Positions 30,955 to 33,988 of a stretch of 33,988 nucleotides of DNA are shown piece after piece. Within the stretch, counting starts at the first letter, position 1. Each line of letters starts with the position of its first letter. A model generated the notes under the pieces. That model made no database searches, was not told where the DNA came from, and saw nothing but the letters and a program-made list of their open reading frames with translations. The DNA comes from a virus, in IMG/VR virus record IMGVR_UViG_3300031578_000195, positions 1-33,988 of that record; one strand, given 5' to 3'. Position numbers and translations under genes: made by a program.

Positions 30955-31438
30955 TTACTGATCTCCTTTGCCTTCTAACAGGCTGTCTTGACTGTCTGCT
31001 TTCTGCAATCACTTTGCGATTATTTTCATAAGTGGTATCCACTTCGTAGTAATTGGCAACAGCCAGATCAGCCAAAGACTTTAAAGCGAAGCCACGTTGC
31101 TTCCATGCTTCAGAAAGTCCAAGCCATTCTTCATGAACTCTGCGATATGCTGAAGCAGAAGCCTGAAGCTCACCACGTCTATGATCTTCCTGTATGGCAC
31201 ATTTGATTTCTTCAACAGTCATCTTTCTACTTTGATCAGAAGATTCCCTGCGAAGTGTTATGTACAACTCAGCTTCATATTTCTCCAGACGATCATCAAC
31301 TTCACGAAGTTCAAAACTTGAACGTGCAACATTTTGGGAAATGTTGAATGCAGTCTGTGCTTGCTTCTCTAATTCATCATCCAATCCATGCTTGTTGATG
31401 GGTAACATTGGAATCACTTGGTTCATTGTCAGTAACAT
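30944..31438 (-). CDS. UvsY-like recombination mediator
   Basis: ATG 31438 (MLLTMNQVIPMLPINKHGLD) has GGAGAG upstream. The 164-residue protein is helical: an N-terminal helix (ELEKQAQTAFNISQNVARS), KMTVEEIKCAIQEDHRRGEL, and WLGLSEAWKQRGFALKSLADL. The last block resembles T4 UvsY, which ends in a similar KSRGFAIK segment and loads the recombinase on gp32-coated DNA. Its position next to ssb and the RecA-like gene supports this. Homology is by eye and should be treated as probable only. Confidence 0.6.
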   Translation of the reverse strand: MLLTMNQVIPMLPINKHGLDDELEKQAQTAFNISQNVARSSFELREVDDRLEKYEAELYITLRRESSDQSRKMTVEEIKCAIQEDHRRGELQASASAYRRVHEEWLGLSEAWKQRGFALKSLADLAVANYYEVDTTYENNRKVIAESRQSRQPVRRQRRSVNDN

Positions 31439-31469
31439 ATTTACTCTCCAGTTAATGTAGTTATACCGA

Positions 31470-33752
31470 CTATGCCGGGAAAATATCGTCCCCAAGTGCT
31501 AAAATAATACCAGCCCATTTATCACTTGCCACCAATGGCTTTGAGAAGCTAGACAACAGATTAAGTAATCGTGGAACATCTCTATCTCCTTTTGCATTAA
31601 GCAGACAGGCATTGAGATAATTCACTATCACAATCCTCACACTCTCTGAATTCTGATCAGACATTGCCTTGATGGTTGTCTGTACCTTCTTCCAATCCAG
31701 ATCACCAGCCACCAGTGCTCTGGCAAGGTCTATAATTTCCTTGCTCTCCATGGGAGCTTCCAGCAATGCAGCAGCTTCGTTCTCATCCTGACACTCTGCT
31801 ACATTGGCCAGCATAGTGAGTGCCTGTCTAGGACTACCCTGACATGACTTGGCTACCAGCTTCAGAACGTTTTCACTGGTTCCCAGTTTTTCTGTATCGG
31901 CAACATATTCCAGTAGGTCCATCAAATCATCATAACGTAGTGGTTTCAAATTGAATGCTTGGCAACGTGTCACCATGGTGTCTGGAACCTTGCCATCTTC
32001 AGTTGTGCAGAAGACGAAGAACACATGCTGTGGTGGCTGCTCTGTGGCCTTCAGTAACGATCCCCATGCCGACTTGGAAAGCATGTGGCAATTGTGAACT
32101 ACCAAACCTTCTACTGAAAACGATGGGTGATTTTCTATTTCTAAGTCGTAGCAATCAATAACTTCAACCTCACCTTGTTTATATGAAACAACACTGTTTC
32201 CAAGGATTGCTCTACGTCCTCGTTCAATATATGCAACACTTGCCATCCCAGTGTTTTTAGTTTTGCAGCTTTCTTTTGATCCCTTAACTTCCCAAGCTTT
32301 GATCTGTGTGTCTTGCCATCCACTTCTATTGCTAATTTCAGTGCCGGAAAAGCTAAGTCTACTTTGTAATGATGTGGAAAACCTTCTTTCCAAGAACTGC
32401 CAGTGTTGATTACAAACTCTACAGCACACTTCAAACGCTTTTGCAAAACTTCCTGTGCTTTTGTCATGCCTGTCCCATTGCCCCCGCGTTTCCCTACCCA
32501 AACGTGTAGTGTCCCATTCTGTTCCTTGGTATTCATCATTTTTTTGATATGCTTCTTTTGAAACATTGGATTGTTTTCCAACATTCTTTGTGAAGACTTC
32601 AAGGCCATAGCTTCTACCATTTTTGGCTTCTCTATTTTTAATCTGGCATGTGCTTCTTTTATTGCCAACTTCCATTCTAGGGGTCGTGGGTAGGATCGCT
32701 TTCTTGCTGCAACTAAATTTCCACAAGTTCTTGAGCAAGTTGAATGTGTACTCTGATATAGCTTTCCACATTCCGGGCACTTCTTCTGCAAGTGAATTTT
32801 CTTGCACTTGTTGCAGTAACGTGCTCCTGCACCTTTGCTCGTAAACTTTGTCCCACATTTCCAGCATTTGTGGTTGTATGTTGGAACTTGTTGTGTATAT
32901 TGATTTGCCATGAGTTAAGTCCTTCGCAAAAACCCATCCAGTACTTGTTAAGAATGGGTGTTCTTCTGAGCACAAAATATGTACCCCGTTTGCTAAGTTT
33001 ACTTTGATAACACGTGTCAGTGCAACTTGTTTCTTCAACACACCTTTTATTCTGTTTGTGCCTTGTGCACCAATAACTGTGTCACCTATCTTTAAATTCT
33101 GTATTGGCACTAGACCTAATGGTGTATTTACTCTAGTATTTTCTGCAAAACACTCATCCACTATGATCATCTTGTTTGGAGTGTCACCAAGTCCCTTGTA
33201 GATGGTGGTCTCTAACAAATCGCGCATATCATCCACACCTGTCTTTACTGCTGCATCAACTTCAGTGATGTCACAGTTGAACTTGCTGGCAAGAATACGT
33301 GCCAATGTTGTCTTGCCAATACCGGATGGACCAGTGAATAGATAACAGTGTGGCACAGTGGGTTTCTTCAGCATGTCCATCAATGAATTGATCACCAGAT
33401 CATGCCCTATCACATCTACAAAAGTTTTTGGTCTGTACTTGATATGCAGTGGCTGATCTGGCACATCAGAAGTTTTTGGTGTGTTCGTTTTATTTTCTTT
33501 CTGTGAAGAAGTCCTACCAGTAGTTGTTGCTTCACGATTGACAAGTTGTTTGCGCGGCATTTTCTTCTCCTTAGATTGATTCTCTTTAAAACGTTGTTCA
33601 TATAATTGCATGCCAGTTACCTGTTCACACCCTTCACCAAGACACTGCTGCAATGCACGTCTGTTGAACACTTCAAACAGACATGAACTTTCTGGATGCC
33701 AGAGCAAATGTCTGACTTCATAATAGCGTGAAGGAACATTGTACTCAGGCAT
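31470..33752 (-). CDS. Clamp-loader ATPase (DnaX/RFC-like) interrupted by an intein
   Basis: The 760-codon frame encodes an AAA+ clamp loader subunit. Exteins: KYRPKTFVDVIG (105-116), Walker A GPSGIGKT (141-148), Walker B MIIVDE (195-200), then after the intein CHMLSK, sensor-like FFVFCTTEDGKVPDTMVTRC. The ligated sequence reads IIVDE-CHMLSK, exactly the family's Walker B. The intein spans residues 201-554, leaving about 406 extein residues. A strong AAGGAG precedes ATG 33560 (residue 65, MPRKQLVNREATTTGR), the likely main start; ATG 33752 overlaps the upstream stop and would add 64 residues with a Cys-containing segment. The protein would load a sliding clamp for phage DNA synthesis. Confidence 0.88.
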   Translation of the reverse strand: MPEYNVPSRYYEVRHLLWHPESSCLFEVFNRRALQQCLGEGCEQVTGMQLYEQRFKENQSKEKKMPRKQLVNREATTTGRTSSQKENKTNTPKTSDVPDQPLHIKYRPKTFVDVIGHDLVINSLMDMLKKPTVPHCYLFTGPSGIGKTTLARILASKFNCDITEVDAAVKTGVDDMRDLLETTIYKGLGDTPNKMIIVDECFAENTRVNTPLGLVPIQNLKIGDTVIGAQGTNRIKGVLKKQVALTRVIKVNLANGVHILCSEEHPFLTSTGWVFAKDLTHGKSIYTTSSNIQPQMLEMWDKVYEQRCRSTLLQQVQENSLAEEVPGMWKAISEYTFNLLKNLWKFSCSKKAILPTTPRMEVGNKRSTCQIKNREAKNGRSYGLEVFTKNVGKQSNVSKEAYQKNDEYQGTEWDTTRLGRETRGQWDRHDKSTGSFAKAFEVCCRVCNQHWQFLERRFSTSLQSRLSFSGTEISNRSGWQDTQIKAWEVKGSKESCKTKNTGMASVAYIERGRRAILGNSVVSYKQGEVEVIDCYDLEIENHPSFSVEGLVVHNCHMLSKSAWGSLLKATEQPPQHVFFVFCTTEDGKVPDTMVTRCQAFNLKPLRYDDLMDLLEYVADTEKLGTSENVLKLVAKSCQGSPRQALTMLANVAECQDENEAAALLEAPMESKEIIDLARALVAGDLDWKKVQTTIKAMSDQNSESVRIVIVNYLNACLLNAKGDRDVPRLLNLLSSFSKPLVASDKWAGIILALGDDIFPA
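32091..33152 (-). mobile_element. Intein in the clamp-loader Walker B site
   Basis: The element encodes 354 residues, Cys201 to Asn554. Block A is CFAENTRVNTPLG, block B is CSEEHPFLTSTGW (261-273, H265), and the C-terminal blocks are CYDLEIENHPSFSVEGLVVHN, followed by extein Cys555. Splicing residues Cys1, His-Asn and Cys+1 are all present. The splicing domain alone needs only about 80 N-terminal and 35 C-terminal residues. The middle, about 250 codons, shows no endonuclease motif in the intein frame; the endonuclease is in another frame (32141-32911). Confidence 0.9.
32141..32911 (-). CDS. Zinc-finger, Vsr/PD-(D/E)XK-like homing endonuclease nested out of frame in the intein
   Basis: This 256-residue protein lies wholly inside the intein but in a different frame. 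It has its own AAGGA about 9 nt before ATG 32911. Zinc sites: C16, C19, C33, C36, and C45, C48, C59, C63. The catalytic domain near 150-240 shows KVDLAFPALKLAIEVDGKTH, an Asp (D211), and LGWQVLHILNEDV, the pattern of very short patch repair-like (EDxHD) nucleases. A related nuclease group is known from 'fractured genes' with split inteins in phages. Here the intein frame stays open. It should provide intein homing. Confidence 0.85.
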   Translation of the reverse strand: MANQYTQQVPTYNHKCWKCGTKFTSKGAGARYCNKCKKIHLQKKCPECGKLYQSTHSTCSRTCGNLVAARKRSYPRPLEWKLAIKEAHARLKIEKPKMVEAMALKSSQRMLENNPMFQKKHIKKMMNTKEQNGTLHVWVGKRGGNGTGMTKAQEVLQKRLKCAVEFVINTGSSWKEGFPHHYKVDLAFPALKLAIEVDGKTHRSKLGKLRDQKKAAKLKTLGWQVLHILNEDVEQSLETVLFHINKVRLKLLIATT

Positions 33753-33988
33753 AGACAGTTCCCCATCTACTAACTTTACCCTTCATACCTTCTTTAATTC
33801 TTCTCTGCATTTTTAACCGTAACGTCTTTTTAGCCCATTGAGCTTTTGCTTTAACAGAGCATATTCTTTTTGATTCTTCAGAATGTTTACATCCTATATT
33901 TTTACCAACATGTGATACTTTCATCTTTTCAATACTCTTTACTGTGTGGTGACTTCCTTTTCTGTAAGTATTTCCATAGTGTCTACAA
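33745..33988 (-). CDS. C-terminal end of a homing-endonuclease-like protein (partial)
   Basis: The frame enters from the right edge and ends at 33745, overlapping ATG 33752 of the clamp-loader frame. The visible 80 residues are basic. CRHYGNTYRKGSHHTVKSIE and GCKHSEESKRICSVKAKAQW resemble the NUMOD3-type DNA-binding repeats of GIY-YIG or HNH homing endonucleases. The catalytic part lies outside the window, so the class is not decided. Confidence 0.6.
   Translation of the reverse strand, partial: CRHYGNTYRKGSHHTVKSIEKMKVSHVGKNIGCKHSEESKRICSVKAKAQWAKKTLRLKMQRRIKEGMKGKVSRWGTVYA

Follow-up and report, generated by a model that had tools for sequence, protein, structure and literature searches.

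A phage clamp loader gene in IMG/VR virus record IMGVR_UViG_3300031578_000195 (33,988 bases, hereafter the window, meaning the whole stretch, in whose positions all locus coordinates are given) is interrupted in its Walker B motif by an intein, and a putative homing endonuclease is encoded within this intein in a second, overlapping reading frame. The element is very probably a bipartite mobile intein, with its two functions written in two frames of the same DNA. Searches for relatives also make it probable that such elements form a large and undescribed class of continuous inteins, located mostly at Walker B motifs, in which a homing endonuclease occupies a fixed +1 frame and a dual-coded strand locks the phase, and from which the split inteins of fractured genes descend.

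The host gene, its intein and the nested nuclease

The host open reading frame (ORF; 31470..33752, on the minus strand like all features of the locus) encodes a DnaX/RFC-like AAA+ clamp loader of 760 amino acids, intein included, and contains no stop codon. The N-extein (33153..33752) ends with the Walker B residues ...MIIVDE, and the intein of 354 amino acids (C1 to N354; 32091..33152), as defined by Pfam, alignment and an AlphaFold model, is inserted at DE/C, the slash marking the junction. Its C1 corresponds to residue 201 of P0001 (base 33152) and its N354 lies at base 32091, followed by C+1, the start of a C-extein (31470..32090) that begins CHMLSKSAW and matches Pfam DNA_pol3_delta2 (3.7e-8). 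Blocks A (CFAENT), B (with its histidine in SEEHPF), F (CYDLEIENHPSF) and G (LVVHN) are all present in the host frame, so that C1, the block B histidine, the C-terminal His-Asn pair and C+1 share one open frame; block B reads SEEH instead of TxxH. Pfam assigns this frame to Intein_splicing (8e-9; 35.9 bits, barely over the cut-off of 35.8) and to Vint (1.2e-6). When joined, the exteins align with the uninterrupted clamp loader of an Edwardsiella phage at 49% identity over 304 positions, gap-free at the insertion site (...DECHxLSKxAW), which identifies the element as an insertion into a gene whose relatives lack it.

The nuclease ORF (32141..32911; 256 amino acids plus stop) lies in the +1 frame relative to the host and not in the intein's own frame. 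A Shine-Dalgarno sequence, AAGGA (32920..32924), is located 8 nt before its ATG, within the intein codons for VFAKDLTH. The second-frame protein matches DUF559 (1.4e-9), MTES_1575 (9.5e-6) and the double zinc ribbon family DZR (0.002), with the zinc-ribbon cysteines (residues 16-64, 32720..32866; C45, C48, C59 and C63 conserved) preceding the DUF559/MTES_1575 nuclease domain. A catalytic-type motif, E196-x-D198-G-x-x-H202 (32306..32326), is accompanied by D185 and D211, which are likewise invariant in the family. The stop codon of the nuclease (32141-32143) coincides with intein residue 337, inside block F of the C-terminal splicing region (blocks F and G, residues 331-354; 32091..32162). An earlier sequence-only reading of the window had proposed a clamp-loader frame open through a complete intein, a zinc-finger EDxHD-type nuclease with its own ribosome site and ATG in a second frame, and an overlap of the two reaching into block F; each of these points is borne out here, and separate profile searches found homologues for both frames.

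Predicted structures of the two products

Structures were predicted with AlphaFold2; for the nuclease, 31 family members served as the alignment. The nuclease model (mean predicted local distance difference test, pLDDT, 90) has as its top PDB match in Foldseek the homing endonuclease I-Bth0305I (3r3p), at a template modelling score of 0.72 on the target and a modest E value of 9e-3. The family profile also matches 3hrl and 3r3p by sequence, with I-Bth0305I at E 5e-4, and its catalytic residues and predicted fold place the nuclease in the I-Bth0305I/DUF559 group of EDxHD enzymes. The host-frame model contains a confident Hint (splicing) part at its N-terminus, spanning residues 1-88 (pLDDT ~95; 32889..33152), and a confident C-terminal part (residues 300-308 and 331-354), separated by an unconfident middle (pLDDT mostly ~37-60) that would form a disordered linker of ~210 amino acids. 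Foldseek returned 29 PDB matches to the intein model at E values up to 0.001, with inteins leading, and the best of these is the gp41-1 intein (E 1.9e-7). By every sequence and predicted-fold test made, the element thus belongs to the inteins. Nuclease residues 224-229 (QVLHIL) and intein residues 300-308 are coded by common bases (32225..32255) and, according to alignments and both models, are strands of two unrelated folds.

A family of nested nucleases in one constant phase

Scans of viral contigs with the single proteins P0002 and P0001 yielded four weak relatives or none, and profile alignments were needed. Profile searches of viral contigs and GTDB genomes, blind to the host frame and with patterns that required an intact catalytic motif, provided two sets of 80 loci plus eight close genomic relatives, which were clustered at 70% identity into 117 clusters. 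The nuclease is nested within a continuous, intein-bearing host ORF in 106 of these, always in the +1 phase, while six clusters are split and five free-standing, one of the latter (L002) being merely a weak relative. None of the 117 carries the nuclease in the host frame or in the third frame, which is full of stops at nested loci. The arrangement, which the sequence-only reading took for a possible intermediate, is therefore not a rare transitional state, and independent relatives with the identical layout exclude a sequencing error as its origin.

By Pfam, 103 C-exteins belong to Helicase_C (65), clamp loaders (21), ResIII (15, these sets overlapping), SNF2 (5) and a terminase (1). Nearly all insertions are of the form DE/C...HN/CH or DEAH/C, that is, in the Walker B motif of clamp loaders or superfamily 2 (SF2) helicases. 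The hosts furthest from these are a DNA methylase-like gene (L037; NE/C) and a terminase interrupted at its Walker B motif (L137; HN/CEEAQ). Bacterial genomes are also represented, including Ktedonobacter racemifer (L175), in which another intein apparently lies further along the same helicase (...TEGYD/CLDRETEILTPQGW...). In the alignment of C-exteins from nested loci (A6), two sequences match the Cas12f1-like TNB family in Pfam (best E 2e-5). A tblastn search of phage records identified 40 genomes of Vibrio, Corynebacterium and Pseudomonas phages, all 40 of which annotate only the host coding sequence (CDS) under the nuclease match and none the nuclease. In the eight records that were opened, the nuclease occupies the +1 frame of a CDS named helicase, hypothetical or similar. 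Cultured examples of the nested layout are phi673 of Corynebacterium glutamicum and Pseudomonas phage MR14.

Stop avoidance and the split alternative

Expected stops in the host frame were obtained by permuting synonymous codons, a shuffle that preserves both the protein sequence of the nuclease and its codon usage. Across the 106 nested clusters (19,717 codons) no host-frame stop is found against 850 expected, and in the window alone none against 12.3; 104 of the 106 clusters are individually significant (P<0.05). Zero host-frame stops is part of the criterion by which a cluster was called nested, and that 106 of 117 frame-blind clusters satisfy it is a signal in itself. As controls, 44 free-standing DUF559 genes have a mean of 14.3 stops in the corresponding frame, with a single gene having none. 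Split and free relatives have stops in the host-type frame at or near expectation, except for the free-standing L174 (17 against 24.3, P<0.002), where the deficit may be left over from an earlier nested state.

In the six split clusters (L074, L096, L098, L099, L100 and L102) the host ORF is broken in two around the nuclease: an IntN ORF ends soon after the nuclease start and an IntC ORF begins near its end, both halves being +1 to the nuclease. In L074, L094 and their kin, the interrupted gene is an SNF2-like helicase (DEAHS/C). It is improbable that the window, too, encodes a trans-splicing split intein, made as two polypeptides around the nuclease and with a middle that is open by accident. 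This alternative gains from the sister clade, which is built in exactly this way at the equivalent site, and from the nearest structure of the window's intein, gp41-1, itself a split intein from a fractured gene. However, the host ORF of the window is continuous, and the nested middles are open far beyond accident, whereas the nuclease region of the true split relatives carries 15-35 stops in this frame.

Internal start signals

A Shine-Dalgarno sequence of at least 5 nt precedes the nuclease start in 49 of 105 relatives, compared with 15% of interior starts. A further and highly improbable alternative is that ribosomes shift out of the host frame and yield the nuclease solely as part of a fusion protein. 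This would account for the phase always being +1 and for the roughly half of relatives that lack a clear Shine-Dalgarno sequence. Against it stand the enrichment of such sequences and the split and free relatives, which encode the nuclease as a separate ORF. In the window, an in-frame TAA (32915..32917) lies two codons upstream of the ATG, which leaves only the interval between the two for a shift and makes a frameshift fusion very unlikely.

Selection in two frames

Variation by codon position was compared within sets of close relatives. It falls at host codon position 3 in the exteins and Hint N-domain, moves to host position 1, which is nuclease position 3, at intein codon ~80 and returns at ~340; the variable position therefore switches frame where the nuclease starts and ends. 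Among seven sequences, 18, 7 and 6 of the 20 codons 220-239 vary at positions 1, 2 and 3, respectively, compared with 4, 3 and 12 for codons 60-79. At codons 300-339 variation is low for both frames, and both limit change there. Within this region the same DNA encodes LGWxVLRF, the conserved C-terminal strand of the nuclease, and RVESVEV, a strand of the intein C-domain, and the glycine codon of LGW is GGG, giving valine in the host frame, in 81 of 99 nested and six of six split members, against 36% of other glycine codons in these genes (Fisher 3.5e-19), none of four free relatives and four of 15 generic homologues. This bias indicates intein-level selection on the overlapped strand.

These patterns, together with the missing stops, support the dual coding that had been proposed from the window alone. 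The accompanying idea that the intein-frame middle is a passenger linker stands as well, with one correction. Upstream of the dual-coded strand, where pLDDT is low, host-frame hydropathy equals that of a null that forbids stops (z -0.3), and no amino-acid-level selection was seen; the overlap is not passive throughout, however, as the final ~35 nuclease codons overlap the C-terminal splicing domain and are constrained in both frames. The net charge of the linker is slightly lower than in synonymous permutations (0.028 against 0.048 per residue, combined z -8.6), a shift that could stem from a codon-context effect.

That one of the frames is a chance ORF or a dead relic, free of selection, is extremely unlikely. 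The linker's lack of a hydropathy signal beyond stop avoidance speaks for such an explanation, but position-specific variation in both frames, the invariant nuclease motifs and the GGG bias refute it for the family. Removal of the insert as RNA, by a group I or II intron with a homing ORF, is next to impossible. Introns commonly carry homing ORFs that are out of frame with the host gene, but in this insert the host frame has no stops and codes for an entire Hint domain, and this candidate was rejected as no Rfam intron match was found in 31400-33988.

Probable mobility and the probable origin of split forms

Two pairs of loci are consistent in sequence with homing and recombination. The exteins of L011 and L013 differ at 57 of 110 and 72 of 150 third positions, and their Hint N-domains at only 3 of 80. 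L062 and L093 have close exteins and divergent nuclease segments (76 of 177 wobble sites), which points to exchange of the nuclease part. In a nuclease tree rooted on generic DUF559 sequences (a quick search, no bootstrap), the split forms are a single clade (SH-like approximate likelihood ratio test, SH-aLRT, 99) inside the nested forms and retain their phase. This suggests that the nested state came first and that the fractured genes derive from nested ones; the sequence-only reading's suggestion that an element of this kind might give rise to a split intein is strengthened accordingly, and the link it drew to the split inteins of fractured genes stands.

The free relatives L113, L166 and L174 are situated directly upstream of intein-less helicase genes. 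At L166 (4880-4900) the free-standing nuclease neighbours a DECH helicase with a disrupted reading frame, the break lying precisely where inteins insert in Walker B; this could be a scar of cleavage repair or a sequencing error. In the window itself, 33745-33987 (minus strand) is the 3' end of an ORF that the contig end truncates. It has a weak NUMOD3 match (E 0.022) and probably belongs to another homing endonuclease, a free-standing one encoded immediately upstream of the clamp loader. An apparent series of loci with a dead nuclease and an intact intein (L044/L081, L125, L126, L132, L163/L169 and L173) was dropped. Their stops fall no more than ~30 codons from where the match begins, ahead of or close to the true start, and the searches admitted only sequences with an intact catalytic motif, so that these loci are no evidence of nuclease decay.

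A model for a two-frame mobile intein

In the mechanism that we propose, the host frame would be translated straight through N-extein, Hint N-domain, a disordered shadow linker of ~210 amino acids, Hint C-domain and C-extein, and the intein would splice in cis to restore the clamp loader. The nuclease would be translated separately, from the internal ribosome site carried by the codons that end the Hint N-domain; its start, Shine-Dalgarno sequence and stop are all visible in the DNA. It would read the middle in the +1 frame and take its stop codon from those of blocks F and G. The enzyme presumably cuts intein-less Walker B alleles, whose repair would copy intein and nuclease together, a step supported by inteins being more alike than their flanking exteins. 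Purifying selection preserves the nuclease sequence across the middle and the intein sequence towards either end, with the host frame of the linker held mainly to the absence of stops. The shared DNA of the LGWxVLRF and RVESVEV strands plausibly locks the phase. Stops in the linker, together with translation starts for the IntC half, could then turn a nested intein into the split intein of a fractured gene.

Several observations weigh against this model. No closely related intein-less allele of the window phage was found, and about half of the relatives are without a 5-nt Shine-Dalgarno sequence. The window is itself atypical at the dual-coded glycine, with GGA and a host methionine in place of valine. 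Deep branches and rooting of the nuclease tree are weakly supported (SH-aLRT 82-93), making the ancestral state a parsimony inference.

If the two-frame arrangement operates as proposed, it would uncouple the nuclease from the spliced protein whilst keeping both on one stretch of DNA, and may explain how an intein continues to splice as its nuclease evolves or is swapped. It also provides a specific path by which continuous inteins could become split ones, from which widely used tools derive and whose origin is an open question. It is, besides, a clear example of extended dual coding in which selection can be measured in both frames. As the 40 public phage records annotate the host CDS only, nuclease genes of this kind are systematically missed. 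The cultured phages phi673 and MR14 make the nested layout testable.

Comparison with known systems

Dassa and colleagues reportedly described, in 2009, genes fractured at split inteins and associated with a homing endonuclease of Vsr/EDxHD-like type. Set beside that system as citing papers present it, the window element shares the nuclease superfamily, the position of the nuclease between the splicing halves and a Hint domain nearest to gp41-1, and its relatives include a clade that has the fractured form at an equivalent site. It differs in that the host frame continues through the nuclease, splicing would occur in cis and one DNA stretch codes for two proteins. I-Bth0305I (PDB 3r3p) has the same EDxHD nuclease domain, by family profile and Foldseek, but is called a mobile intron protein in the PDB, whereas the nuclease described here has zinc ribbons and sits in inteins. 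Canonical LAGLIDADG and HNH inteins have in common with the window a Hint splicing domain, a nuclease between blocks B and F and insertion into an active-site motif; their nuclease, however, shares the intein's frame and is excised within it, whereas that of the window would be a separate product of another frame.

A literature search turned up no account of an intein whose nuclease is out of frame, although overlapping frames may be mentioned in Dassa 2009 or Taylor 2011. Among published work, the one out-of-frame case identified is the hidden HNH endonuclease of the ShiLan domain, an insertion described from phage methylases (Arsenault et al. 2025, PMC11855218). There, too, an out-of-frame endonuclease lies within an inserted segment through which the host frame stays open, but the enzyme is an HNH nuclease, splicing domains are lacking, the host retains the insert and no ribosome-binding site is detectable (PMC11855218), whereas the window combines a DUF559 nuclease with intein domains. 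The window element is thus not an intein with an in-frame endonuclease. Nor is it a fractured gene, although fractured genes are among its relatives.
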